The translations under genes and the position numbers were made by a program. From contig DATGFS010000011.1 in NCBI GenBank assembly GCA_035308905.1, positions 1 through 64,000 of the forward strand: DNA of 64,000 bases, written 5' to 3'. The stretch is from a bacterium (GTDB lineage: Bacteria; Sysuimicrobiota; Sysuimicrobiia; Sysuimicrobiales; Segetimicrobiaceae). The notes under the pieces are model-generated. The model did no database searches and was not told the origin of the DNA. It worked only from the letters and a program-made list of their open reading frames with translations. This document shows positions 23,910 through 38,003 of the stretch, one piece after another (position 1 is the stretch's first letter; each line of letters opens with the position of its first letter).

Positions 23910-23983
23910 GGGCCCGTAGCTCAACGGCAGAGCATCCGGCTCATAACCGGCGGATCTAGGTTCGATCCCTGGCGGGCCCACCA
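23910..23983 (+). tRNA. tRNA with CAT anticodon (elongator Met or Ile2)
   Basis: Acceptor GGGCCCG (23910-23916) pairs with CGGGCCC (23973-23979). The D arm has AGCTCAACGGCAGAGC, the anticodon loop TCATAAC gives CAT, the T arm has GGTTCGATCCC, and CCA is encoded at 23981-23983. A lysidine-modified Ile2 tRNA cannot be told from elongator Met by eye. Its 3' half is the integration site of the mobile element that follows. The gene remains complete. Confidence 0.93.
23936..23980 (+). repeat. attL: 3' end of tRNA(CAT) at left edge of the element
   Basis: The 45 bases from the anticodon stem to the discriminator base of the tRNA recur at 37949-37993 with three substitutions. This is the attachment-site duplication expected when a tyrosine integrase inserts an element into a tRNA gene. 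Confidence 0.85.
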
Positions 23984-24160
23984 TAGCAAGGGCCGCAGCG
24001 CGTCCCCTGTCCTCTGCTACCCTCCTGCTACCCGCTTCGAGAAAACAGGCCCCCCGGCGATAGTCAGCCATGTTCGAACAGTCACCCCATGCACCCGGGG
24101 CACCGCGGCCCGTATCCTCGCGCCCGGCGGGGCTTCTACGGGTAGGGTCGGAACGACGGT

Positions 24161-24244
24161 ATGACAGTGCCGACACGGTCACCACAGGTACTCGAGAACG
24201 GCGTGAAGATCAGCCGTACCGGCCGGGTCGTGGGAGTCCGCTGA
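24161..24244 (+). CDS. Possible 27-residue leader peptide before terminase small subunit
   Basis: A short frame, MTVPTRSPQVLENGVKISRT followed by GRVVGVR, ends in TGATG, where the last A begins the ATG of the terminase small-subunit gene. The coupling is neat, but there is no strong ribosome site and no known homologue, so this could be chance. Confidence 0.25.
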   Translation: MTVPTRSPQVLENGVKISRTGRVVGVR

Positions 24245-24708
24245 TGCCGCGGACCTGGGCGCTCGTTGCGGGCGAGCCGTTGCGAAACATAGCGAAACGA
24301 ACCGGAACGTCCGTTGCCGCACTCCACCGGCATCGCCCGCACGTCTCAGCCAAGCTGACCAAGGCCCGCGAGGCCAAGGAGGCCGCCAGCGCGGACGGGT
24401 TGCTCGCCGGCATCGCGGCGCTGCGCGAACGATTGGAGCGGGCCCTCGAAGATGCCCAAGCGGCCAAGGACGTGGCTAGCCTATCCCGTGAGCTCCGCGA
24501 GACCATCCGCCTGATGCTGGAACTTGAAGGCCGCCTGCGGCAGAGCGCCCATGTACAGGTGGCCGTGACGCTTGTCCAGTCGCTGGAGTGGCTCTCGCTT
24601 CGCACGCGGATGGTCCAGGCTCTCGAGCCGTTCCCCGAAGCTCTGACGGCTCTCGTCCAGGTTCTCCAGGAGGAGAAAAGTCCCGATGGTCAACCTGCTC
24701 GCCGCTGA
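24244..24708 (+). CDS. Phage terminase small-subunit-like protein
   Basis: 154 residues from ATG 24244, which follows GGGAG. The N-terminus PRTWALVAGEPLRNIAKRTG and TSVAALHRH form a helix-turn-helix of the kind that small terminases use to bind the packaging site. The rest is helical and Glu/Arg-rich (SRELRETIRLMLELEGRL) and suits oligomerisation. Its position directly before the large subunit, which starts inside its end, supports the call. Sequence similarity alone is weak. Confidence 0.55.
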   Translation: MPRTWALVAGEPLRNIAKRTGTSVAALHRHRPHVSAKLTKAREAKEAASADGLLAGIAALRERLERALEDAQAAKDVASLSRELRETIRLMLELEGRLRQSAHVQVAVTLVQSLEWLSLRTRMVQALEPFPEALTALVQVLQEEKSPDGQPARR

Positions 24709-25614
24709 CCTTCTCGCAGCCCTCACCTCACAGGCATCCTGGCAGGCTTACCGTGAGGATCCGGTCGGCTTCTTCTGTGACGTACTGGGGCTGGTGCCGT
24801 GGGCGCGGCAGCGCGAGGTGCTCGAGGCGGTCCTCCGTCATCCGCGAGTCGCGGTGCGCTCCGGCCACAAGGTCGGCAAGAGCGCCTCAGCCGCCGGCCT
24901 GGCACTGTGGTGGGCCGCCACACGACCGAGGAGCCGAGTCGTGCTCACGTCGGCGTCGTACCGGCAGATCCGGAGCATCCTGTGGCGTGAGCTTAAGACG
25001 CTCCACGCGGCGGCCCGCCCCCCACTCGGCGGAGAGCTACACGCCCACCCTGACGCGGGCCTCCAGTTCTCGGACGGCCGCGAGATCGTGGGCTTCAACA
25101 CCACGGAGCCGGAGCGTATGTCAGGAATCTCGGGCGCCAACTTGCTCTTCATCCTGGACGAGGCATCCGGCATCCCGGACCAGATCTTCCAGGCGATCGA
25201 GGGCAATCGCGCCGGCGGCGCGCGCCTCGTCCTGTTCAGCAACCCCACGCGCACGAGCGGCACCTTCTTCGACGCCTTCGGGACGAAGCGCGAGTTCTGG
25301 CATGTCATCCACATCAGCAGTGAGGAGACGCGGAACGCGCAGGAGGGCCGTGACGTGATTCCCGGCCTCGCCACGCGGGAGTGGATCGAGGAAAAGCGCC
25401 GGGAGTGGGGTGAGACGTCGCCACTCTATCAGGTGCGCGTCCGCGGCGACTTCCCCTCGCAGGCCGAGAACGCGATCATCGGGCTCGCCCTGGTCGAGGA
25501 CGCCACGGTCCGGTGGGTCGAGACGCCGGCAGAGGGTCGGCTCACACTCGGCGTCGACGTCGCCCGCTTCGGCGATGATGAGACGGTCATCTTCCCCGTA
25601 CGGGGACATAAGGC

Positions 25615-25620
25615 GCTAGC
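25615..25620 (+). repeat. Target-site duplication GCTAGC, left copy
   Basis: GCTAGC directly precedes the first base of the IS terminal repeat, and the same six bases follow its last base at 26658-26663. The target is palindromic and lies at the centre of a longer palindrome, GGCGCTAGCGCC, in the uninterrupted terminase gene. Confidence 0.85.
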
Positions 25621-26657
25621 TGTAGTTCCCAGATAGGTTGTTGACACATGAAAGCCTTCCAGCGTTCGTGTGGGGCAGAGGGTATCCGCCCCACTCTGGG
25701 AGGCGTTCATGGGCCGTGCGCGTGGCAAGCTCACCCCGGCCGGACGACTGCTGCTGGTGCAGCGAGTCACGGTCCTGCACTGGCCTGTGAGCCAGGCGGC
25801 TTCCTCGATGGGAGTCTCTCGTGAGACGGCCTACGAGTGGCTGGGGCGCTGGCGCCGTGACGGTGCCGCGGGATTGGAAGATCGATCGAGCCGTCCCCAT
25901 CGGTCGCCCCGCCAAGTGCCGGCCGCCGTGGAGCGCCGTATCTTGCTGCTGCGTCGTCGACTGAAATGGGGTCCGCATCGCTTGGCTCCGCTCGTGGGGC
26001 ATCCGCGCTCGACGATCTACACCGTCCTGGCGCGGCACGGCATGACGCGGTTGCGGGATCTGGATCGCTCGACCGGCGTGCCGGTCCGCTACGTCCGGGA
26101 CCATCCGGGCGAGCTGCTCCACCTCGATATGAAGCCGCTGGCCCGGGTTCCCGAGGGAGGCGGGCACCGGGTCTTGGGGCGCGTGCCGGGCCCGCATCGC
26201 CGCGGGGCCGGCTATGAGGTGATCCACGTGGCGATCGACGACGCCTCGCGGCTCGCGTTCGCCCAAATCCGCCCCGATGGTCGGGCGCTGACCGTCGTCC
26301 AGTTCCTCACCGACGCGGTGGGCTTCTTTGCGGAGCACGGGATCCGGATTCAACGGATCATGACCGACCGCGGCTGGAGTTACACCCAGTCGCCCCGCTT
26401 CCGGGCCGTCGCGCGGCGGTTGCGGATCCGCCACAAGATCACGCGCCCCTATCGGCCGCAGACTAACGGCAAAGCCGAGCGGTTCGTCCAGACTCTGTTG
26501 CGCGAGTGGGCGTATGCACGGCTTTATCGCTCGAACGAGGAGCGCCGCATCGCGTTTCCGAAATGGCTGCACTACTACAACCATCATCGCCCCCACACGG
26601 CGCTAGAAGGGCGGGTCCCCGCGGTCGTGAGTGTCAACGACATGTGTGGGAACCACA
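25621..26657 (+). mobile_element. IS481-family insertion sequence (1037 bp)
   Basis: Imperfect terminal inverted repeats: left TGTAGTTCCCAGATAGGTTG then TTGACA, right (reverse complement) TGTGGTTCCCACACATGTCG then TTGACA. The TGT ends, about 1 kb length, single transposase gene and 6-bp target duplication fit the IS481 family. The left end diverges at four or more positions of the repeat from the right. Confidence 0.9.
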
Positions 26658-26662
26658 GCTAG
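25709..26662 (+). CDS. IS481-family transposase
   Basis: 317 residues from ATG 25709 (MGRARGKLTPAGRLLLVQRV). An N-terminal HTH (PVSQAASSMGVSRETAYEWL) is followed by an integrase core with LLHLDMKPL (first Asp), IMTDRGWSYTQS (second Asp) and RPYRPQTNGKAERFVQTLLR (Glu), giving a complete DDE triad. PHTALEGRVPAVVSVNDMCG is the usual IS481 C-terminal block. The stop codon lies in the target duplication just outside the right repeat, so the stop is provided by flanking DNA. The element looks intact and potentially active. Confidence 0.92.
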   Translation: MGRARGKLTPAGRLLLVQRVTVLHWPVSQAASSMGVSRETAYEWLGRWRRDGAAGLEDRSSRPHRSPRQVPAAVERRILLLRRRLKWGPHRLAPLVGHPRSTIYTVLARHGMTRLRDLDRSTGVPVRYVRDHPGELLHLDMKPLARVPEGGGHRVLGRVPGPHRRGAGYEVIHVAIDDASRLAFAQIRPDGRALTVVQFLTDAVGFFAEHGIRIQRIMTDRGWSYTQSPRFRAVARRLRIRHKITRPYRPQTNGKAERFVQTLLREWAYARLYRSNEERRIAFPKWLHYYNHHRPHTALEGRVPAVVSVNDMCGNHS

Positions 26663-26663
26663 C
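26658..26663 (+). repeat. Target-site duplication GCTAGC, right copy
   Basis: Six bases identical to 25615-25620, immediately after the ACA end of the IS. Its TAG serves as the stop codon of the transposase. Confidence 0.85.
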
Positions 26664-27492
26664 GCCTATCATCGAGCACAAACTCGACACCGTCCAGGTG
26701 GCCGGCCGGGTGCTCGAGGTCGCGCGTCAGCTTCGCCTGGCGGACGAGCGGCCGCTCGTCCGGGTGGACGTTATCGGCGTGGGCGCCGGCGTGTACGACC
26801 AGCTCTATCACGCCCCGGAGGTGGAGACGGTCGCAGTCAACGTCGCGGAAACCCCGGTCGGGATCGAGAACCAGGAGCGCTTCGCGCAACTGCGTGATCA
26901 GATGTGGTTCGGGCTGGCGGATTGGCTCAAGGACGGCGGTGCGATTCCGGACGATCCCAAGCTCGAGGCCGAGCTTGTGGCGCCCACGTATACGTTCGAT
27001 ATGCGGGGACGCATCAAGGTTGACACAAAGGACAAGATGAAAGAGCGCCTCGGACGGTCACCGGACCGGGCAGACGGTCTCGGCTTGGCGGTCGTGTCAC
27101 CGCAAGGTAGTTATGAAGCGTGGTCCGGTTATTACCACAGCACGCTCAAGGACGCGGAGGCCCAGGAACTGCGGGAGATGCCGGCGGCCGGTGTGCGCAA
27201 CCCACAAGCGCCGGCGCAGTTGACTCCAACGCTCGGCAACCGCACGATCGTCACCGTCCGCGGCGATGACGAAGCGGCGAACGATGCGATGCTCGTCCGC
27301 CTGCTGGCTGGACTCGCTCGTGGCGAGCCGATCCCCTGGGAGACGCTCCAACCCGCCCATGCCGAACGACTCGACAAGATGATCGGGGCCACGATGCAGG
27401 GCGCCGCCCCCGCTGACCAGCGTGTCTACCTCATGGAGCGGCGGCGGTACACACAGGTTAAGGGGCACGCCGGCGCCTCCGTCGGAACCTAA

Positions 27493-27732
27493 CGCGAAGT
27501 CCCCTCACAGGCACATATCTTCATCGCCCGCGGCGTAGCAATCGCCCGGGCGGCGTTGGCATCGATTTCCGACAAGGTGGCGGCCGGCGTCAGTCTAGAG
27601 TCCCCGTTCGACGATCTCGACGGCGGCACCATCATTGCCGACGGCACCGAGGAGCAGTACATCGCGGCCCTTCGCAAGGCGCGCGGCGAGCTTCCGAAGT
27701 CGAACGGTGAGACGGGGGACGCGTCCTCATAG
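27493..27732 (+). pseudogene. C-terminal remnant of an unidentified phage protein
   Basis: The reading frame continues, in phase, directly after the terminase stop TAA (27490-27492) for 79 codons: HIFIARGVAIARAALASISD, then KVAAGVSLESPFDDLDGGTI, to a TAG. It has protein-like composition and matches the window codon bias, but has no start codon and no ribosome site. It is best read as the tail of a phage structural gene (for example portal or minor head protein) left after a deletion. The identity is unknown. Confidence 0.4.
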
Positions 27733-27846
27733 TAACGTCGTTTGGCTCGCTTCTTCGCAAGAGGGTTCCACGCGTTTGTTCGCCGAGTATCTAAGAAATG
27801 ATCGAGTCGATTACAATGTTCGATCTGAACCTATGAGCGTCTGACG

Positions 27847-28407
27847 ATGCCACGGCGCAGACGTCGTTCCTTTATCATCCCGCGACGGCTCATTGAGCTC
27901 GGGATCAGTGCCGTCGACACGGCCGAGGCATTAGCGAATCCCATTTCGTTGCTGAAGATGGTCGCCAAGAAAGGCGTCACCGCAACGCTCAAGGCCGGGG
28001 ACCAAGCAGAAGAGCAAGCGGTGCGACGAGAGGTTATTACCGAGCTGCAAGCGCAGATGAGGTATTTGGACGGACATCTTGTCAGGGTTGTTGGCTTCTT
28101 CGAGCGCAATTCGAACTTGCCGAGCGGCAGCACTATCGCTCAGGTTTCACCGAGCGCCGCGAGGGAGTTCGGTGAACTACGCAGGGCGCTCCTGGGCACA
28201 GCGCGAGATGTTGAGCGCGCCGTCTTTGATGTAGCACCGTACTTGCGTGACGACGAGCGCGAGATCATGGCTCGCCGTATGCGCGATGTCAGAGGCATAC
28301 TCCACCATGTGCTCTGCGACAACACGGACCCGCTGGTTGACCAAGCCGGACAGATCCGTAACGCCCACCGGATCGTTGCCGCAGATATCGACGGTCTGAG
28401 GCCATGA
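27847..28407 (+). CDS. Hypothetical protein in the element, 186 residues
   Basis: Starts MPRRRRRSFIIPRRLIELGI and is predicted mostly helical and basic at the N-terminus, with a charged middle (AGDQAEEQAVRREVITELQA) and a C-terminal helix NAHRIVAADIDGLRP. No signal peptide, clear domain or known motif. GC content is lower than the host genes. It lies between the terminase remnant and a convergent small gene. Confidence 0.5.
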   Translation: MPRRRRRSFIIPRRLIELGISAVDTAEALANPISLLKMVAKKGVTATLKAGDQAEEQAVRREVITELQAQMRYLDGHLVRVVGFFERNSNLPSGSTIAQVSPSAAREFGELRRALLGTARDVERAVFDVAPYLRDDEREIMARRMRDVRGILHHVLCDNTDPLVDQAGQIRNAHRIVAADIDGLRP

Positions 28408-28599
28408 TAGCAACCGAAGGCTCAGGCTAAGCTTCCCCACCATGCTGTGAGCCGCGTCCGCCGCAGCCCGCGGCGTGGTGGGGTGGCTGTGTGGCCAGCG
28501 CGGGGGCCGCCCCATGAAGGGATTTTCATCGTGGCTGGCCGGAAGCTGCCGGAGATCAGCTAGCTCTCAGGCTCGAGGACGAATTGCTCGACGCCACGG

Positions 28600-28938
28600 T
28601 TACGGCGGGGACTGTAGTCTTTGGCGTCGTTCTCGCGCATATTGCTGTTGCAAGCTTCTTGCGATCGCTTCATCCGCTTTGTCCCATCCAGCAAATTCCC
28701 AAGGGGAGAAACGTCCGCGCGCCATCGTCTTAAGAAGCACCGTACGATGGCGAGAGTCTATCCGAGGATTTCTCAGGAACTCCTGCGCTTCGCCTGAGAG
28801 CGTCGTTCTGACGTATTGCCCAAGGTCGCTATCGATGCCGTATTTTTGCAGCAGGTAGTCGGTCCACTTGTCCTCGTACTTGTGTGTCAGTTCCCCTATG
28901 ATCTGCTGTCCTCTCCTCATCCGCTCAAACAACCTCAT
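28600..28938 (-). CDS. Hypothetical protein, 112 residues
   Basis: MRLFERMRRGQQIIGELTHK, then WTDYLLQKYGIDSDLGQYVR: an amphipathic, Tyr/Arg-rich helical protein with no recognised domain. A run of six G lies 11 bases before the ATG. An overlapping plus-strand frame (28475-28858) has poorer composition. Function unknown. It is in the lower-GC segment. Confidence 0.45.
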   Translation of the reverse strand: MRLFERMRRGQQIIGELTHKYEDKWTDYLLQKYGIDSDLGQYVRTTLSGEAQEFLRNPRIDSRHRTVLLKTMARGRFSPWEFAGWDKADEAIARSLQQQYARERRQRLQSPP

Positions 28939-29065
28939 TGCTCATTCACCCCCCCCGGATGGCTTATGGTCCGGCGGGTACCGAGTCTAGACGCGCAGAC
29001 CAGCATAACGTCGCGAAGCTGACATTCAGCCGAATGCGAATACGCGGGTAAGGGCCGGTGTCCGC

Positions 29066-29374
29066 GTGCTGGGCGCCACGGCTGACACCCTGACGGCCCG
29101 CACGGTGCTACCCGAGGGCGTCGGGAAGTACTGGCTTTACTACGCGGATGCCTGGCATCCGTTCTGGCACGCACAGGTCAACGGGCTCGAGGTCCCGATC
29201 CTACGTGCCAATTTCGGCTTTAAGGCGATCGAGGTTCCGCACGGTGTGGCGACAGTGAAGTTTGCGTACCGATCCAGCACGCTGTCAGGTGCGCTAGTTG
29301 TATCACAGGTGCTACTGATCTCAGCAACGCTGGCGGTGGTTCTGGTATCGGTCCGCCAATTGTTCCACCCTTGA
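29066..29374 (+). pseudogene. C-terminal fragment of a YfhO-like membrane glycosyl-transfer protein
   Basis: About 100 codons. WHPFWHAQVNGLEVPILRAN followed by GFKAIEVPHGVATVKFAYRS is the beta-rich tail typical of YfhO/GT-C proteins (a GW-x-x-x-x-DG-x-x-v-x-I-x-x-x-N block). A last hydrophobic helix follows, LSGALVVSQVLLISATLAVV. The large N-terminal membrane part is missing, so this is a fragment brought in or left by recombination. It lies beside an O-acetyltransferase, as in surface-polysaccharide loci. Confidence 0.5.
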
Positions 29375-29391
29375 AACACGACGTCGATCTC

Positions 29392-30588
29392 TTACCGAGC
29401 CCATACCGTGATTGAACTTTGCTCGTTCCTCGCAGTCGCTGTTGGCGAAGGGTACCATCGTTTCTTCAGCGCGAGGCCGGGACGTTCAACGACCAAATAC
29501 GTCAACGCGGCCATGCCGATTGTCATGGCAACATAGAGAACGAACCCCGTCCGGGCGATAAGGTACGCGGTCAGTCGATCACCCCGGGCGATGCCTGCAA
29601 GTCCTAACATCAACGCTCCGATAGCTGGGTGCCACAAGTAGATGCCATACGTCAGCACACCCAAGGTCCGCAACGAGCGTGACCGCAGCAGACGACTCAG
29701 GATGGAACCGTTGTTCGCCGCAACCCACAGAATGCCGACCGCAAAAAAGCAGGCCGTGACGCCATACAGCACAACACCGTAAGAAGCGTACGGATACTCC
29801 AACGTTTTGCGCCATAGGAAGCTCAAAACAACCACGCTCGCACCCAACAACGCGCCTGTCAGCGTTCGATGCACCGCCAAGACGGACGGAACGCTCCGCG
29901 CTGCCATCCAGCCGGCGATGCATCCTGCCAAGAATACATCGGCGTAACAGAATGTCGCAAAGTACATCCCGGACGGATGCAGACGGGGGACAAGTAGAGA
30001 GATTGCGCGACAGACGACGCCCAACACCGCCGCCATGGCAAGCACGCGCCAAACCCGGCGTGTTGACGTAAGTACCATCGACAGTACGACCGGGAATAGC
30101 AGGTAGAACTGTTCCTCTATCGAGAGACTCCAGAAGATGACAAGGACAAGGGAGATCTGGTCCTGATAGCTTGTAACAGGAGTCAGGGCAAGACCCCAGT
30201 TGGACAGGAAGCTTGGCCACATCCAGGCATGGTGTCGAATCCACACGAGTTGGGACGGGCTCGCGGTTTCCGCTGCGACCACGAACATACACGGCAGAAG
30301 CGAAAAGTAGAGGGGCCAGATTCTGAGACAGCGACGGACATAAAAATGGATGATGTCGATGCGACCGTGCTGATCAAACTCTGTAACACTCAACCGGGTC
30401 AGCAAGAACGACGACAGGACGAAGAAGAAGACAACTCCCATCGGACCGATCGGAAAGAACTGCAGAAACCTCGCTAACCCGTAGTCCCATCGTGATATCG
30501 GGTTGTAGTGCCACAGCAAGACGGACAAGGCCGCGATCGCCCGGAGCCCGTCGAGTTCCGGCATCCACACTTTTTTGAGCTCCGGCAT
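29392..30588 (-). CDS. OafA-like acyltransferase (acyltransferase family 3)
   Basis: 398 residues and about ten membrane segments. MPELDGLRAIAALSVLLWHY is the family signature with the catalytic His. FYVRRCLRIWPLYFSLL and FWSLSIEEQFYLLFPVVL are the two other hallmark blocks, and the protein ends in TYLVVERPGLALKKRW. Members O-acetylate lipopolysaccharide or exopolysaccharide, so it could alter surface glycans as a phage-borne conversion gene. ATG 30588 gives a duplicated MPEL start, and the internal ATG at 30564 fits the family length equally well. GC is visibly lower than in the flanks. Confidence 0.85.
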   Translation of the reverse strand: MPELKKVWMPELDGLRAIAALSVLLWHYNPISRWDYGLARFLQFFPIGPMGVVFFFVLSSFLLTRLSVTEFDQHGRIDIIHFYVRRCLRIWPLYFSLLPCMFVVAAETASPSQLVWIRHHAWMWPSFLSNWGLALTPVTSYQDQISLVLVIFWSLSIEEQFYLLFPVVLSMVLTSTRRVWRVLAMAAVLGVVCRAISLLVPRLHPSGMYFATFCYADVFLAGCIAGWMAARSVPSVLAVHRTLTGALLGASVVVLSFLWRKTLEYPYASYGVVLYGVTACFFAVGILWVAANNGSILSRLLRSRSLRTLGVLTYGIYLWHPAIGALMLGLAGIARGDRLTAYLIARTGFVLYVAMTIGMAALTYLVVERPGLALKKRWYPSPTATARNEQSSITVWAR

Positions 30589-31673
30589 CAGCGTCGCACG
30601 GGTCCCGCCATCTCGCCCGGATTAGCTCCGACATTCGGGCAGCCGCTGATTATGGAACCGCAAGACCCGCGGCTATGCGGAGTTCGAGGACCTTCGAAAA
30701 TGCATCCGTCGTTGCCGTTCATCGCAAGTCTGCCAAACGGCGGGCCGACAAAACGAAAACCCAGCGCCTTGTAACTCGGGCCGGGTTCGCCATTCGCTCA
30801 GCGCAGCCCAGGCGACCAGACTCACAGGCTGCGGATCATTGCGTCCGAAAAAGACGCTTGGATTGTTCGTTGAGATCCTATCGACCCGGCGTCACCCTCC
30901 CCCGAGGTGCATTAGATTCGTGGATCGGCGGCATAGGTCTAAATCAGCGTTATAAACAGGTGGGCGAAGAAGAGGATAATAATCTAAAACAGGCCGGTAA
31001 ATATCAATTGAGACGCTTCCGTTCTGCCAGATAAACTCCTTCCTGCGGGCAGAATGCCGTTTTCGGGGCAGCACCCCGGCCCTGCTGTCCCGAAAGCCCG
31101 TTTGTGCCCTCCTTGCACCTCAACATTTCGGCATGGCCGCGTTGGCACCGATTTCTTGGACACCAATCCCAGATGCGTTCGATCATTACGATCTGTGCTG
31201 CCAACCTCAAGCGACCGCTGTTTCCTATCGCGCGGGCGGGTTTCGAGTTTCAGCCAACGGGCCGCTGCTCCGGCGGGCTGCCAATCATTATCGAATTTTT
31301 GCAATGGCGCGCTTACCATAATGAGGTCGGTGGCTACAGCGGAAAATAGGAGGACGTTACCCATGCACTAGACGTAAATGCTCTCGTCCGCCGAAAAAGG
31401 GTCCTCGCAGCAGTCCCCAAAGGGAGCTTAGTTTATCTACAGTTGACAGAGCGTTTGGATTGAATCGTACGCGTCCAAAAGATCCTCAGATCGATAGAGG
31501 TTTTCTTGACCATTAGGGGAAGGACGGAGTGAGTTTAGTCGTCGCAGATTTCGTGCTTTGCTTGGTTCTTCATTGATTTTTATTGGCCGACCGTTACTCA
31601 TCCCTGGCTGTTTTTGCTGGTTCGATTGAGGCACCGATAGGATAGAGGCAGACGGCGAACCCGGGGGGAGTCT
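30589..31673. other. Intergenic segment of the element without convincing genes
   Basis: About 1.1 kb of lower-GC DNA between the acyltransferase and the secreted protein gene. Several short frames occur on both strands (for example near 31004-31370), but none combines a ribosome site with protein-like composition, and they overlap one another. A GGAGG at 31349 is followed after a few bases by ATG-CAC-TAG, which is not a gene. No tRNA or clear terminator was found. Confidence 0.5.
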
Positions 31674-32783
31674 ATGGGCTTGATACGTGGTTTGATTCAG
31701 CACGTCTCTGCCCTTGTTTCCGCAAAATCTAGTCGATGCCGCGAGGATATGGATAGGGCGCGGTGGCTCAAGACCGGTGCTCTTTTGCTCACTTCACTTG
31801 GTATCGCATTTGCTCTTATCGTTCCGTCTGCCGCGTCGTTGGGAACCATTACACCTTTTAGTTGCGGCCAGGTCTTCGGCGTCAATGGAACCTCGCCGAC
31901 GTATTCTATCGTGGGGTTTCAAGATGTAAGCAGGACCTACGTCGGATTTCAGGCGAACGTCGGCACCATTACGAGTTCCTGTGGAAATAATGTCAGCATA
32001 CCAGGCGCCACCTCAGTGTTTCCGGCGGCCATTAGCCCGGACGGTTTTATGACTGGCATTTATGCGGCCTCAGACACAACGCGGCCTGCCTTTGTGATGG
32101 ACCCGCATGGGAATGTCCTTTCCTTCAAGGCGAGTGACAGTGGCCTATCCGGCGACGCCAACGCCTATGGCCAGCATCCGGCCGGAATTACCGTCTCAAC
32201 TGGCGGCATCGCGTGGGTGGTGGGATCCTACCTCACCAACAAAGGAAAGACATCGCACTCCTTCGCCGTCCAAATCAATACCAGCAATAGTCCGCCGACG
32301 ATCGTCAGTGGGAGTTGGATTTCGTTTGACATTTCAGTGGCCGGGAGTGGCACCGCCAGAGGCGTGGATGGCGCCGCCATTGTAAACATCGTGGGTTCGT
32401 ATCCGGATGCGAGTGGAAAAGATCAAGGGTTTGTGCTCAACCTCACTGACCTGCTGTCGGTGAGACAGGCTGCGCCGCAGGTGACGGTCGTACCGCTCAG
32501 TTCCGTCGCTACCGTGACCTGTTCCGGTGCGATTGGCGGCCGTATTCATGGCATCAGCGACGGTGGTCGGACCGTCGGGGTAGCCTTCACGGGCACTGTG
32601 TCAGGGTACGCTTATTTGGTGGATGGCGGCTGGACTAAAGGTCAAGCGACCCACCCGATCTGCAACCAAATCCCCGTCCCGGGCGCGTCGAAGGGCGGCG
32701 AGACATGGGCGTCCGGAGTTACCTCGGATGGCGTGTATATCGTCGGACAGGGCGGCAGCGCCGACTGGGTCTATCAGCCATAG
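31674..32783 (+). CDS. Secreted or anchored beta-propeller-like protein (HAF-repeat type)
   Basis: 369 residues. ATG 31674 follows GGGGGGAG, and the internal ATG 31749 would start directly before the hydrophobic segment GALLLTSLGIAFALIVPSAA (about residues 36-55). The rest repeats units of the kind GITVSTGGIAWVVGSYL, GAAIVNIVGSYPDASGKDQG, GISDGGRTVGVAFTG and GVTSDGVYIVGQG. This is the pattern of extracellular HAF-type repeat proteins that probably form a beta-propeller. Thr/Ser-rich, with few charges. Function unknown, perhaps surface adhesion. Confidence 0.6.
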   Translation: MGLIRGLIQHVSALVSAKSSRCREDMDRARWLKTGALLLTSLGIAFALIVPSAASLGTITPFSCGQVFGVNGTSPTYSIVGFQDVSRTYVGFQANVGTITSSCGNNVSIPGATSVFPAAISPDGFMTGIYAASDTTRPAFVMDPHGNVLSFKASDSGLSGDANAYGQHPAGITVSTGGIAWVVGSYLTNKGKTSHSFAVQINTSNSPPTIVSGSWISFDISVAGSGTARGVDGAAIVNIVGSYPDASGKDQGFVLNLTDLLSVRQAAPQVTVVPLSSVATVTCSGAIGGRIHGISDGGRTVGVAFTGTVSGYAYLVDGGWTKGQATHPICNQIPVPGASKGGETWASGVTSDGVYIVGQGGSADWVYQP

Positions 32784-32976
32784 AGTCCTAGGCTAGCGAA
32801 ATACGGAGCGGGAGCGGGTCAGGGATTCTGACTCCGCTCTCGCTGTTTCTATCGGAAAAGTCTCGTCGCTCGACAACCTGGGACGGGGGAGTTGGTCAAC
32901 CTGGGCGGTGGAACATCGGCCCAGCGGCCAAACCGAGCCGGCGCATTGTGGTGATCGTCTGGGTGGGAGGCGCAAG

Positions 32977-33462
32977 ATGGGACTCTTGCGCGACATGGAA
33001 AATGAACGTCTGAGGTTGGCGCAGATAGAGTTGGAAATGAGGGATCGAGGAACGTGGGGCGATTACGATTCGCTCGCGCTCATGGAAGAAGAGTATCCCA
33101 AGGGCGCTTGGCTCTCTGACGCGGTTCTCTCGAAGACTATCACCAGATTCAGGACTGGATTGCCGACTGATACGCCGGAGTTCATAAACAACAGACGGTA
33201 TTTCCAAATGGCGATCAGAGAACTGCACCGGCGCGGCTACGCACGTTGTCCGCGTTCAGACGGATCATTCGATATCGTCAAGGGAAAAGCGTCGGGAGCG
33301 GAGTCTCTATTAGATTCGGTTGAGCCCCATTCCGATGCGGAAACGCTGCGTCAACGCCAAATCGCCATCGGTCCTGCCACAGGGGCTCCCATCACAATCG
33401 CGATATTTCTTCTCGGGATTCTGGTCCTCGCTATTGCCTATTACTTCGGATCGCAACATTGA
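32977..33462 (+). CDS. Hypothetical protein with C-terminal membrane anchor
   Basis: About 161 residues from ATG 32977, which follows GGGAGG (a start 23 codons upstream is possible but lacks this). The soluble part contains GTWGDYDSLALMEEEYPKGA and RYFQMAIRELHRRGYARCPR. The end is one hydrophobic segment, PITIAIFLLGILVLAIAYYF. No known family. It is probably a tail-anchored membrane protein of the element. Confidence 0.5.
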   Translation: MGLLRDMENERLRLAQIELEMRDRGTWGDYDSLALMEEEYPKGAWLSDAVLSKTITRFRTGLPTDTPEFINNRRYFQMAIRELHRRGYARCPRSDGSFDIVKGKASGAESLLDSVEPHSDAETLRQRQIAIGPATGAPITIAIFLLGILVLAIAYYFGSQH

Positions 33463-33756
33463 GAACCGGAACAAGTGTCCGACGAGTCTGACACCCTCTT
33501 ACGTAAGACCAGAAATGACGCGAATACGATCACTTCCGAGCCGCCTTCGGTTGAGTAGGGGTGGTTGGACCTGGACGCGCGAGCGCAGTGACCCTCGGCC
33601 CGGGAGCGGTCAGCAGGTATATGGGGGGGTGATGGTCTTCCTCTTCGTCCTGTGGGGCTTGAACCCCCGCGGATGGTGCGGCCGGTGCTAGTGGGGGTAG
33701 CCGAATCCCCGGCCTCTTCCCCCCACATGGTCCCGCTCGACACGACTTGGGCGGCA

Positions 33757-34354
33757 CTACCGAACCAGTTTCATTTGCTCGAGCCTCACCCGCATCGCTG
33801 ACGGCGTTACTCCAAACTGCCCCGCGAGCCGTTTCACCCGCTCTTCAGTGCTTAACTCACCTACCGTGGGCCGCTCCGCCAGCAGCGCAAACCACCGCTG
33901 CCGGACCTCGCCGAACGGCATGAGCAACTCGGCGGCGAACGCGCGAGCCTCGCGCTCGTATACCACGCGCCAGGCTTCCTGAAGCCCGATGGCCCGTCCC
34001 GGAACAGGTGCTGTCCACGAGCTGGTGCTCGAGCAGCACGTGGCCGAGCTCCTCGGCCAGGATCCAACGGCGCTCACCGGGTGACGAGATCGGATGGCGT
34101 CGGTTGAGGATGATCGACCGGCGGCCGGCTACGTCGCCGACTGTGGCGCGAACATCCTCGCCGAGCACGCGCTCCACCGTGGGCACGCCCCCGCGCTCAA
34201 CGATGGCGTCGATGTCGACGGGCGGCCGCTGGCGCGTGAGCACCAGCAGGGCGCGAGCCCGATCGCGGGCGATCGCATACCGTGGATTCTCGTCCTTCGA
34301 GGAGATCCCCACCTCAGACAAGCGTAGCAGGCGGATGGCGAGTTGTGTGTTCAA
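33757..34354 (-). pseudogene. ImmA/IrrE-family metallopeptidase, frameshifted
   Basis: The N-terminal half reads from TTG 34354 (NTQLAIRLLRLSEVG, then PPVDIDAIVERGGVPTVERV) to the zinc site, which is ILAEELGHVLLEHQ, with the first His of HExxH replaced by Glu. The second half, WRVVYEREARAFAAELLMPF with GVTPSAMRVRLEQMKLV, is in another frame. The switch lies near 33990-34015. In the family this enzyme cleaves a repressor or antitoxin. Here it is probably inactive, both by frameshift and by the altered zinc ligand. Confidence 0.6.
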
Positions 34355-34765
34355 GCGGTTTTCTCCGACCCCACCACGCGACGAATCGTGCGCACAGCGG
34401 CTCCAGTCCGTACCCGCGAGCTTCCGCAGCGCCGATGGCGTGCAACTCCACGTCAATCGCAAATGTGCGCAATCCGAGGTGTGCGTCGGACACCGCGGCA
34501 GTGCGGATCCCGGAGGCCGTCTCGCGTCTTTCCGAGGTCGCGGTGACGGCCACACGTAGGGCGATGGCTACGTCAACCGGCGGACAGTCGGCCGGAAACT
34601 TCGGCACGATCTTGACGCGGCCGGTCTCGCGGATCGAGACGTGGGGTCGGCGAGCAAAAGGTGCTCGGCGATGTACGCTTCGAACTGGACTTCCTGGCGG
34701 TCGAGAGCGACAGTGACGTAGTCACGGACGATCCGGCGCACGTGGACGCCTTGAGCACGCGACAC
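34314..34765 (-). pseudogene. Unidentified gene with a one-base frameshift
   Basis: Two frames join around the C-run at 34643-34646. VRRIVRDYVTVALDRQEVQF and EAYIAEHLLLADP come first, then VSIRETGRVKIVPKFPADCP and PVDVAIALRVAVTATSERRE. Adding one C gives a continuous protein of about 150 residues. It precedes the ImmA/IrrE gene on the same strand and overlaps its start by about 40 bases, so the two probably formed one module. I do not recognise the product. A sequencing error in the C-run is possible. Confidence 0.4.
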
Positions 34766-34800
34766 ACGGACTCCCGCCGAACGAACGAACAGCGGGCGAT

Positions 34801-35463
34801 TCAGGCCTTCCAGGGCACCCGATACACGGCTTGGTAGTCTCCCTGAATCACCGGCTCTATTTGGATCATCGCCGCGCCCCGGTTGAGGAGGAACCAGTAC
34901 TTGGCCAACAGACGACCGAGTTCGTCAAGAGCCCCGTCAAGATCGGCGAACGTGGCCGGACCCCTGTACCCCCTGCGCGCGCGGTGCGCGACACGCTTGT
35001 TGACAAAGTGGCGGAGCCGGGCTTCGGTCCTGCGCAACTGTCGGAGATCCTCTCGCACCTTTCGAGAAGAGATCCATCGGGCACCGGGGCTCGCGTAGGC
35101 GTCAAAGTCACGCTCGCCTCGTTGCCGGAAGTCCGCTCGGGCCATTGGCGGCCGACCGCGGGTGTACGGGCGGACGAACCACTCCCGTGTGAAAAGGCGC
35201 GGGTTGCGGGCGATCTCGGTGAGCAACGTGCAGAGCGAGGTGACCGGCTTCCTGTCGCTGTAGTCAGACTGCCGGCGTACGGCCAAAGCCGCGGTGATGC
35301 TGTAGTTTGTGGCCAGCCAATCCCAGACGGTCACGTCAGCCTCCCTCAGCGCTGGATTCTCCTGAAACATCTGGGAAGCCTCACGGAATAGGCGCCGGTT
35401 GTGCGAGATCGCAACGACGTCATTGTAGATGATCTTCGACCAACGTCTCCACCGGCGGATCAC
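34801..35463 (-). CDS. HEPN/AbiU2-like protein
   Basis: 220 residues from GTG 35463, which overlaps the upstream stop as GTGA. IIYNDVVAISHNRRLFREAS, SITAALAVRRQSDYSDRKPV then SLCTLLTEIARNP, and later TEARLRHFVNKRVAHRARRG match the layout of AbiU2-type HEPN proteins, in which an Arg-x4-6-His motif often gives RNase activity. AbiU2 belongs to phage abortive infection in lactococci. In this element it is a candidate defence or addiction gene. The call rests on motif layout and was not confirmed by a search. Confidence 0.5.
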   Translation of the reverse strand: MIRRWRRWSKIIYNDVVAISHNRRLFREASQMFQENPALREADVTVWDWLATNYSITAALAVRRQSDYSDRKPVTSLCTLLTEIARNPRLFTREWFVRPYTRGRPPMARADFRQRGERDFDAYASPGARWISSRKVREDLRQLRRTEARLRHFVNKRVAHRARRGYRGPATFADLDGALDELGRLLAKYWFLLNRGAAMIQIEPVIQGDYQAVYRVPWKA

Positions 35464-35699
35464 GGCGTTGCCTTCTTCCGGTGGCTGACCAGGAACTGCT
35501 CGGCCGCTGCCCACGTCTCGGCGAGCGTCTGCCCTTTGCCCGGTCGAGAAAGATGCTCTGCGAAGTACGAGGGCCGGCCGGGATCCAAGTCCACGTGAGT
35601 CACGAGCCACTGCCAATGATCGCCGTCGGGCAAGACGATCAACGAATAGAGGTCGGCGCCGTCGATGACGTGCTGGACTCCCTCGCGATCCTCCGCCAT
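35460..35699 (-). CDS. Small partner protein of the HEPN-like gene, 79 residues
   Basis: MAEDREGVQHVIDGADLYSL, then HWQWLVTHVDLDPGRPSYFA and LAETWAAAEQFLVSHRKKAT. Acidic and Trp-rich, with no known domain. The stop overlaps the start of the HEPN/AbiU2-like gene by four bases, which implies co-translation at a fixed ratio, as in toxin-antitoxin or immunity pairs. It is therefore a candidate antitoxin or accessory subunit by context only. Confidence 0.55.
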   Translation of the reverse strand: MAEDREGVQHVIDGADLYSLIVLPDGDHWQWLVTHVDLDPGRPSYFAEHLSRPGKGQTLAETWAAAEQFLVSHRKKATP

Positions 35700-36011
35700 A
35701 TCTGCTCTACCTCCACACTTGCTAACAGGGGCCTGCTCTCATCGTACCGCGCCGCGCGTCGTGTGCTACCTGGGGATGGCTCGCTCACGTCCCGTGGCTC
35801 CTGTCCTTGGGGCGTGGCGGCGATCTGGACGCGGCGATTCATGGTCATGCGAGATCCATGCCGAGTCCGGCAACCTGTCAGACGCCGTCGCCGGGGACAA
35901 AACGAAAGAGGCCCGGCTGCCCGGGCCCCGGTGTCGAGAAAGGAGATCCTTTCGCGACACTTCCGAAGCGATGGGATCTGCGTACAGCCTCGCCACACGC
36001 GCCACGCTGCG
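35700..36011. other. Intergenic segment with terminator, no gene seen
   Basis: 312 bases between the HEPN module and the serine recombinase, both on the minus strand. It holds the terminator at 35897-35927 and, by position, probably the promoter of the HEPN module. Frames here are overlapping shadows with poor composition. Confidence 0.5.
35897..35927 (-). terminator. Rho-independent terminator of the serine recombinase gene
   Basis: On the minus strand GGCCCGG-GCAG-CCGGGCC forms a 7-bp stem with a four-base loop, followed by TCTTTCGTTTTG. It lies about 85 bases after the recombinase stop. Confidence 0.75.
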
Positions 36012-36659
36012 CTAGGACAGCCGCGGCGCCGTCGCTGGCCGTGGACGCGAACCCCCCTTTCTCGACAGCGCACGGGAGACGGTCGAAACAGTCACGCCGA
36101 GCCGCTTGGCCGCCGCTCGCCGGGATAGGGCTTCCGTCTCGATCGCCGGGCGCAGCGTGTCGAGCTCGCCGTTCAAGGCCAGCGGCCGGCCCACGTGCTT
36201 ACCTTGCTTCTTGGCGCGAGCCATCCCCGCCCGGACACGCTCTGCGATCAGCGCGCGCTCGAACTGCGCGAACGACGCCAGGATGTTGAGCATCAGGTCT
36301 CCCACCGGCGACGTCCCGGACGTGTCGAGCCACGGCTCCGAGTAGGACCGGAGGCCGACGCCCCACCGTCGGAGCTGTTCGACGGTCGTCGCCATGTGCG
36401 CCACCGACCGAAAGGCTCGATCCAATTTCCAAACGAGGATGACATCCACGCGCCGCTTTGCCGCTTGGTCGAGCAGGGTGCGCCATGCGGTCCGGCCGCG
36501 CAGATCCGTGGCCGAAGCGTGATCGACATATTCGCCGGCGATCGTCCATCGCTGCGCCGCGGCGAAGTCCCGGAGCGGCAGGAGCTGTGTTTCGGGCTCC
36601 TGGTCCTTGTCCGAGGTTGAAACGCGAGCATAGATGCCGACGCGCAGCGTCGTATTCAT
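36012..36659 (-). CDS. Serine recombinase (resolvase/invertase family)
   Basis: 215 residues. GIYARVSTSDKDQEPETQ carries the nucleophile Ser14. VDVILVWKLDRAFRSVAHMA and NILASFAQFERALIAERVRA are family motifs, and the end ALSRRAAAKRLGVTVSTVSR is the DNA-binding HTH. At this size it is a small resolvase/DNA invertase rather than a large phage integrase. The gene is complete and has its own terminator. Its upstream end abuts the truncated start of the tyrosine integrase, divergently. Confidence 0.9.
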   Translation of the reverse strand: MNTTLRVGIYARVSTSDKDQEPETQLLPLRDFAAAQRWTIAGEYVDHASATDLRGRTAWRTLLDQAAKRRVDVILVWKLDRAFRSVAHMATTVEQLRRWGVGLRSYSEPWLDTSGTSPVGDLMLNILASFAQFERALIAERVRAGMARAKKQGKHVGRPLALNGELDTLRPAIETEALSRRAAAKRLGVTVSTVSRALSRKGGSRPRPATAPRLS

Positions 36660-36717
36660 ACGGCCTGCTCGCTCAGTCGTGTCTTGAGGCGCCGGAGCGT
36701 CAGTTCCGTCACGATGA

Positions 36718-37860
36718 TTTCATCCCGCGCGCGCGGCATGGTCGAACGGCAAGAAGCGGGACAAGTGGATCACGTTCGGCACCCGCACCGAAGCTGAGGC
36801 CGCGCAGCGGGAACTGGCTGCGCACACGCTGGCTCATTCGGCCGGCGTGGGGCTCTACAGTTCCCCACGGGAACGGCTCGGTCCGTACCTTGTGGACTGG
36901 CTCACCCGACAGACGCGACTCGCGCCGAAAACCCGGCGCTGGTATGACGTGATGGCCGCACAGGTGAAACGGGACCCGCTCGGCGGGATCCCGCTGGCCC
37001 GGCTCACGCCGCGGGCGCTCGAGTCGTTCTATGCGCGCCTCCTCGCTTCCGGGTGTTCGTCCACGACGGCGCTGCACTACCACCGCCTACTCCACAAGGC
37101 GCTCCGGGATGCGGAGCGGCAAGACCTCATCATGCGGTCCCCGGCCACCGAGGCCGAGGCACCGCGGCGGGCTCGGGTGCGGCTCGACGTGTGGACTGAA
37201 GCGCAGACGCTCCTATTCCTTTCCGACGCGAAGGCGTCGAGCCCGCACTATCCGCTGTACCTGTTCCTCGTCGGAACTGGGGTGCGGATCGGAGAAGCCC
37301 TTGGGGTGACGTGGCGGGACGTTGACCTCCAGGGCGGGACCGTCACGATCGCGCAGGCGTTGCAGCGGCCGAAGGGCGGCGGGTTTGTCCTGCGTGACCC
37401 GAAAACTCGGAATGGGGCGCGGACCATCGCGCTATCGGAGGAAGTGCTGACCTCGCTGCGAGAGATTCGGGCCCGCCAGCGGCAGGACCAGCTCCGGCGT
37501 GCCCTCTGCCCGGCGGGGGCCGACTGTCGCCAGCAGCATTGTGAAGCGTGGCACGCGCTCGACTTGGTGTTTACGCAGGTGACCGGCAAACCGCTCCATG
37601 ACAACAATGTCCGGTTGCGCGACCTCTATCCGATGTGCAAGCGGCTCGGGCTCCCGTGGCGTCGGGCGCTACACGGATTTCGTCACGCTCACGGGTCCTA
37701 CCTGATTCAGCGCGGTGTGTCGGTCAAGGTGGTGCAGGAACGGCTCGGTCACGCGACCGCGGCGTTCACGCTCGGGACGTATGTTCACGCCTTGCGGGGG
37801 ATGCAAGGGCAGGCGGTGGCGGCCGTATCGGCGATGCTCAAAGAAGGGATGCCGGCGTGA
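36718..37860 (+). CDS. int: Tyrosine integrase, N-terminally truncated
   Basis: Phage-type integrase. The catalytic residues are complete (numbered from GTG 36847): Arg147 in GTGVRIGEALG, His276 and Arg279 in HGFRHAHGSYL, His302 in RLGHAT, and Tyr312. The frame is open back to 36718 and there encodes NGKKRDKWITFGTRTEAEAA, the arm-type DNA-binding domain, but no start codon precedes it and in-frame stops lie just upstream. Either GTG 36847 starts a protein lacking this domain or the real start was lost where the serine recombinase region joins. It sits next to the right attachment site. Confidence 0.85.
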   Translation, partial: FHPARAAWSNGKKRDKWITFGTRTEAEAAQRELAAHTLAHSAGVGLYSSPRERLGPYLVDWLTRQTRLAPKTRRWYDVMAAQVKRDPLGGIPLARLTPRALESFYARLLASGCSSTTALHYHRLLHKALRDAERQDLIMRSPATEAEAPRRARVRLDVWTEAQTLLFLSDAKASSPHYPLYLFLVGTGVRIGEALGVTWRDVDLQGGTVTIAQALQRPKGGGFVLRDPKTRNGARTIALSEEVLTSLREIRARQRQDQLRRALCPAGADCRQQHCEAWHALDLVFTQVTGKPLHDNNVRLRDLYPMCKRLGLPWRRALHGFRHAHGSYLIQRGVSVKVVQERLGHATAAFTLGTYVHALRGMQGQAVAAVSAMLKEGMPA

Positions 37861-37948
37861 TCGGGCTCTGCTACCCGCCTGCTACCCTCTCAAACAGACG
37901 GACCAAGCTGGAAACTCAGCATTTGCAGGCCCTGGCGCACTTGTACTC

Positions 37949-37993
37949 CCGGCTCATAACCGGCGAATCTAGGTTCGACACCTGGCGGGCCCA
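37949..37993 (+). repeat. attR: imperfect copy of the tRNA(CAT) 3' end
   Basis: 45 bases matching the tRNA 3' half, from CCGGCTCATAACCGGCG to GGCGGGCCCA, with three substitutions (one G to A and a TC to CA change in the T loop). It lies 88 bases after the integrase stop and marks the right end of the element. Confidence 0.85.
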
Positions 37994-38003
37994 CTTTTGC
38001 GCC

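Follow-up and report, generated by a model that had tools for sequence, protein, structure and literature searches.

A stand-alone AbiU2-related HEPN gene without the motif arginine, overlapping a small gene in a decayed prophage-like element of a Sysuimicrobiota bacterium

HEPN proteins are known mainly as the RNases of toxin-antitoxin and abortive-infection systems. For the AbiU system of L. lactis, Dai et al. are said to have found in 2001 that AbiU1 carries the resistance and that AbiU2 may lower it. When AbiU2 of L. lactis was assayed in E. coli, it was not toxic (PMC3985639). On these two grounds, the statement in an earlier note on this DNA that AbiU2 is a phage-resistance protein was too strong. 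A survey of HEPN families described the R-x4-6-H motif as conserved in AbiU2, and it also described families which have the His without the Arg and possibly rely on other basic residues instead (PMC3710099).

Two antitoxin systems are also relevant. DUF2281 is an antitoxin of VapC, a pair validated experimentally in E. coli (PMC12654330), and in Synechocystis it forms pairs with PIN genes (PMC4963859). Panacea (PanA) is a hyperpromiscuous antitoxin domain (PMC8832971, PMC10440598).

Here we describe a 220-aa HEPN gene and an overlapping 79-aa gene in a stretch of 64,000 nucleotides of contig DATGFS010000011.1 (the window). The 220-aa gene stands alone, encodes no tail and belongs to a distinct clade of HEPN proteins related to AbiU2. 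This clade has lost the Arg that is catalytic in the HEPN RNase motif, has kept the His with its surrounding polar and basic residues, and has two adjacent Arg residues in helix 2 that hardly vary. In another phylum, the core forms the body of antitoxin-like proteins with a DUF2281 tail and VapC, with another tail and PemK/MazF, or with an N-terminal YgiT/MqsA piece. No description of HEPN-AbiU2 cores within antitoxins was found in the open-access literature.

The gene pair and the surrounding element

The two genes share the bases GTGA (35463..35460), and the lengths, coordinates, minus strand and overlap given for them in the earlier note were all confirmed (Table 1). The GC3 values of the 79-aa frame (0.80) and the 220-aa body (0.77) are gene-like for a GC-rich genome. 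A GGAGG is located 5' of the start of the 79-aa gene, and GGAAGAAGG, a Shine-Dalgarno-like sequence, is located directly 5' of the GTG of the 220-aa gene. Since both frames combine gene-like GC3 with Shine-Dalgarno-like sequences, the gene pair was considered real. A TTG start for the HEPN gene (271 aa) was rejected, as the GC3 of the 51-codon extension was 0.51 vs 0.77 for the body; together with GGAAGAAGG, this makes the GTG the likely true start.

Table 1 Features of the gene pair and of the element around it (window positions)
Feature	Position	Strand	Remarks
Attachment site inside tRNA-Met (tRNA 23910-23983)	23936..23981	+	Equals the 3' half of the tRNA; repeat begins in the anticodon arm
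Terminase large subunit, two pieces (24686-25636, 26506-27492)	24686..27492	+	Interrupted by transposase gene
Transposase gene between the terminase pieces	25670-26662		Identity by eye
ImmA/IrrE (Peptidase_M78, PF06114), two frames (33857-34555 / 33757-34077)	33757..34555	-	Each piece just below cut-off
Broken gene, two frames, directly 3' of the HEPN gene, between HEPN and ImmA/IrrE	34314..34765	-	No family match
AbiU2-related HEPN gene, 220 aa	34801..35463	-	GTG start; PF18734 27.9 bits, motif tally, GC3
Small coupled gene, 79 aa	35460..35699	-	ATG start; predicted beta4-alpha fold, model pLDDT 85.6
Serine recombinase (resolvase/invertase type), just upstream of the gene pair	36012..36659	-	PF00239 134 bits
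Tyrosine integrase	36847..37860	+	PF00589 76 bits; phrog_1
Second attachment site	37949..37994	+	43/46 bases equal to 23936-23981; 88 bases beyond the tyrosine integrase

In our reading, positions 23936-37994 are bounded by the two att sites of a 14-kb element integrated at tRNA-Met. With its att repeats, its tyrosine integrase and a terminase gene split by a transposase, it is a decayed prophage-like element, and the prophage-like setting suggested earlier was thus recovered. So were the remains of an ImmA/IrrE gene and another broken gene nearby, both of them in two frames. Between 33757 and 34765, the two adjacent genes carry one frame change each within 1 kb, and the neighbouring HEPN pair is intact. 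These frame breaks may be either biological or assembly errors. The element also contains a gene for an acyltransferase-3-like membrane protein (29392-30588, identified by eye), which is possibly surface-modifying cargo.

With two frame-broken neighbours and the terminase split by a transposase, the HEPN gene might itself be a decaying remnant without function. We consider this improbable, as its frame is intact and both the conserved residues and the GC3 are retained.

Two described systems share parts of this arrangement. In HEPN-MNT toxin-antitoxin systems a HEPN protein likewise adjoins a small coupled gene, but the 79-aa gene has no nucleotidyltransferase match and the HEPN motif of the window protein is incomplete. 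In the case of RosmerTA, whose antitoxin RmrA is of the ImmA type, the ImmA/IrrE fragment of the window cluster matches the RmrA and CapP profiles weakly. It differs in that the ImmA gene is broken, another broken gene lies between ImmA and HEPN, and no RmrT was recognised in the cluster.

Family and HEPN motif of the 220-aa protein

When the window protein was searched against PF18734 (HEPN_AbiU2), its score was above the gathering cut-off (27.9 vs 26.8 bits), and the AbiU2-type HEPN relationship proposed from the sequence held in this HMM search. Taken alone this score appears thin. The matches of the relatives add to it (36.7 bits for an Acidobacteria relative; E-values of 0.01 or lower in 15 of 36 clade members), as does a profile comparison between the clade and ordinary AbiU2, in which NKrVAH was aligned to RxKxxAH with an E-value of 1.6e-4 and a probability of only 50 %.

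Of 85 genomes from one other phylum, 34 contain a relative of the 220-aa protein; this phylum may be Poribacteria (a guess from sulfatase-like and phytanoyl-CoA dioxygenase-like genes). The relatives outside this phylum, from searches that included one scan of named genomes, consist of L126 (same genus), L127 (same family), L005 (a Streptomyces plasmid), L031 (an Acidobacteria MAG) and L128 (one further genome). A plasmid search with the 220-aa protein returned one Streptomyces relative at a query coverage of at least 80 %. Three scans of viral contigs gave no relatives, and no match was found in phages. Searches of PADLOC, NCBIfam and PHROGs gave no match for the 220-aa or the 79-aa protein, and a PDB sequence search with the 220-aa protein also gave none. 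A structure model of the 220-aa protein built from 2 sequences was all-helical, with low confidence (pLDDT 54) and long helices at residues 2-35, 44-68, 133-164 and 173-199; it retrieved nothing meaningful from the PDB.

The motif NKRVAHRARR is present at residues 155-164 (N155-K156-R157 and H160), as noted earlier, but the upstream Arg of the earlier note is R151. This corresponds to R-x8-H, which is too far for the RNase-type motif that had been claimed. No Arg was found at R-x4, x5 or x6 before H160, and V154 occupies the motif-Arg position. The same holds for the whole clade: Arg is found at this position in 0 of 43 members (window copy included; A 31, V 8, T 3, I 1), whereas 11 of 11 ordinary AbiU2-type proteins have R-[NDH]-x4-H (= R-x5-H). 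At the position that follows, 41 of the 43 clade members have D or N. The His is kept in 36 members and replaced by Tyr in the remaining seven, which form one subclade. Conservation across phyla was observed for H160, N/D155, K156 and R157.

In helix 2, R63 and R64 are each conserved in 42 of 43 clade members, and Y189 is conserved in all 43. The R64 position is mostly R or K in ordinary AbiU2, and the R63 position is not Arg where it can be aligned. Thus, with Arg absent from the motif and present at R63, the clade has lost one Arg and has another in a new place. As all Arg-less members belong to one clade, this was regarded as a signature and not as repeated covariation.

The clade resembles HEPN_AbiU2 in its sequence profile, its length, the position of the [ND]-K-x-x-A-H block and its all-helical prediction. 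It differs by the absence of the Arg of R-x5-H, by the helix-2 RR pair and by an extra conserved W..IF..PW C-terminus. Because the defining R-x5-H feature failed, the clade was classed as AbiU2-related and not as catalytic AbiU2, and the window gene would be filed in this clade and not within the catalytic family. An annotation as 'AbiU2/HEPN' is by itself no proof of an active RNase.

For the window copy, we consider a regulatory, non-toxic HEPN-fold protein to be the most likely explanation, at about an even chance for the reading as a whole. Ranked next is a HEPN protein that is still active as an RNase, its catalytic Arg having moved to helix 2 (R63 or R64). Such a protein would be an abortive-infection or toxin effector, with the 79-aa protein as its antitoxin or activator. 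The residues conserved across phyla, the small coupled gene and the prophage-like setting would suit an RNase of this kind, as would the His-only HEPN families which may use other basic residues (PMC3710099). We nevertheless regard it as rather unlikely, since the motif Arg is missing in 43 of 43 members and the AbiU2 of L. lactis showed no toxicity in E. coli, an observation which fits the non-toxic explanation (PMC3985639).

Tails and toxin genes in the relatives

In the other phylum, up to ~6 kb per side was taken around 37 copies of the HEPN core; the count of tails was made by visual inspection of the C-termini, and genes of the relatives were called as simple open frames. In 23 clade members of this phylum, the core extends into a C-terminal tail of the form KGLI...FD..LP.F.EY (e.g. 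GSAKGLIHISEDFDDELPDFKEYM). DUF2281 was matched in nine members (E-value of 0.01 or lower), and where the matched stretch was displayed, it covered the last ~26 positions of the profile.

A VapC gene or its remnant follows the core in 21 of the 23 tailed loci (16 intact), compared with 0 of 20 loci without the VapC-type tail. VapC was identified by PF01850 (PIN; 58.7 bits), and 20 of the 21 genes or remnants are directly adjacent, most with a 4-bp overlap. The association between tail and VapC gave a Fisher p of 2.6e-10, to be read with the VapC-tail loci being one clade and not independent. These loci also formed one group in the tree (support 81/49), with the MazF-linked loci elsewhere; this tree is poorly resolved at its base and has long branches, that of the window copy among them. 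In a control of 11 ordinary AbiU2 loci with 1.5-kb flanks, neither VapC nor such a tail was found.

Examples of the core with a DUF2281-type tail overlapping VapC, from loci L090-L125, are L099:6073-7268, L095:5533-6734 and L104:6016-7211. The genomes of the fused, VapC-linked L095 and L104 consist of two and three contigs, respectively, so that a fusion by mis-assembly is unlikely. This arrangement resembles VapBC with a DUF2281 antitoxin (PMC12654330, PMC4963859) in its tail and overlapping VapC. It differs in that the N-terminal part of the antitoxin is a HEPN core of ~220 aa, and the window copy has neither tail nor VapC.

Other combinations were observed as well. Two members (L101:5648-6681 and L103:3129-4162) end in the tail WWNxEGDKEWDEWSP and overlap a PemK/MazF gene (33.3 bits) by 13 bp. 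A tail of the same type is present in L117, with no MazF nearby. In L106:5593-7299 and L107:1243-2596, a YgiT-type (YgiT/MqsA) antitoxin piece is N-terminal to the core (22.8 bits in L107 vs a cut-off of 20.2) and a DUF2281-type tail is also present. The gene preceding this protein encodes DUF4258 in both loci, and VapC follows it in L106. The L106/L107 protein is a double antitoxin fusion.

Purifying selection acts on the core (dN/dS 0.17) and likewise on the His-less subclade (0.19). In this subclade (L113-L115 and L122-L125), where Tyr replaces His, the proteins no longer have the W..IF..PW end but retain the antitoxin tail, and five of the seven loci have an intact VapC. That a subclade without the His is still under purifying selection, with tail and VapC, counts against an RNase with a moved Arg. 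Since the seven His-less members keep the tail, the role as antitoxin body is suggested not to need the His.

In our proposal, the core is a HEPN scaffold that binds RNA or dimerises and regulates toxin modules, and not a free-standing RNase toxin. The tail would neutralise the adjacent toxin, as DUF2281 does VapC, and the HEPN core would be responsible for dimerisation and might also bind RNA or mediate autoregulation. The conservation of the His and Arg residues across phyla, as would be expected in an active enzyme, counts against such a scaffold. The window copy would be an orphan of the scaffold kind, carried as cargo by the decayed 14-kb tRNA-Met element. Its antitoxin reading is carried over by analogy from relatives at about 20-35 % identity. 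When a VapC-type tail and an adjacent VapC or MazF gene were looked for at the window copy, neither was present. The broken gene downstream of the HEPN gene was also considered as a lost VapC and rejected, as the window locus has no PIN match.

More generally, the Arg-less clade may be an antitoxin body that takes toxin-specific tails (VapC- and MazF-type) and even YgiT, so that one core would serve several toxin families. Tail-less orphans would then represent a stage that precedes tail capture or is separate from it. We put the probability of this generalisation slightly below one half. Like Panacea, it would have a single core domain with various toxin partners; it differs in that the core of the clade is HEPN-related, and so itself a toxin fold, its specificity apparently resides in swapped tails, and its partners are few so far. 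If true, an Arg-less clade fused to tails neutralising VapC, and probably MazF, would be a toxin fold turned antitoxin body, and AbiU2, whose role is still unclear, would become linked to known toxin-antitoxin modules.

The 79-aa protein and its association with the HEPN gene

The 79-aa gene was found near none of the 42 other clade loci (L031 being close to a contig end). The only relatives found are two proteins of the same bacterial family (genomes G006 and G003; loci L131 and L132), which are located in other surroundings; a HEPN gene was sought in both genomes and was absent. No relatives were found in phages or plasmids. Thus, the pair does not travel together in the clade, an outcome that the earlier note had itself named as grounds for rejecting its reading. 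As the 79-aa gene does not co-occur with the clade, a dedicated antitoxin role for the small partner, as suggested in that note, is unsupported. An RNase with a moved Arg also fits less well with a partner that is not conserved. The broader proposal of a toxin-antitoxin pair stood in part, in that the clade is linked to toxin-antitoxin modules and the pair is coupled and operon-like, but the HEPN protein sits in the position of the antitoxin.

Folded alone, the 79-aa protein gave a confident beta4-alpha model (pLDDT as in Table 1). Among the best PDB matches of this model (E-value 0.013 and weaker) are PUR-alpha repeats, with PC4-like proteins matching less strongly, a likeness which is only suggestive of single-stranded nucleic acid binding. 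At 15.6 bits against a cut-off of 29.7, a DUF3141 match of the 79-aa protein was taken to be fortuitous.

The two genes may also be chance neighbours. The HEPN protein would then act alone, and the 79-aa protein would be unrelated cargo, a small protein of nucleic-acid-binding-like type. This would be compatible with either the scaffold or the RNase with a moved Arg. We judge it a serious possibility, if a little short of an even one. It agrees with the PUR/PC4-like model, with the 79-aa relatives in genomes that have no HEPN gene, and with the tail-less relatives, each of which has a different upstream gene or none. The GTGA overlap, the good ribosome-binding sites and the coding GC3 of both frames suggest coupled expression instead. 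The 79-aa gene and the HEPN gene probably share a transcript, but their association would be only a local one.

A different coupling was seen in the relative from the same family (L127:5900-8500). Here the HEPN gene has a 4-bp overlap with a different upstream gene of 145 aa, which has two apparent membrane helices, and a relative of the window's serine recombinase is located nearby.
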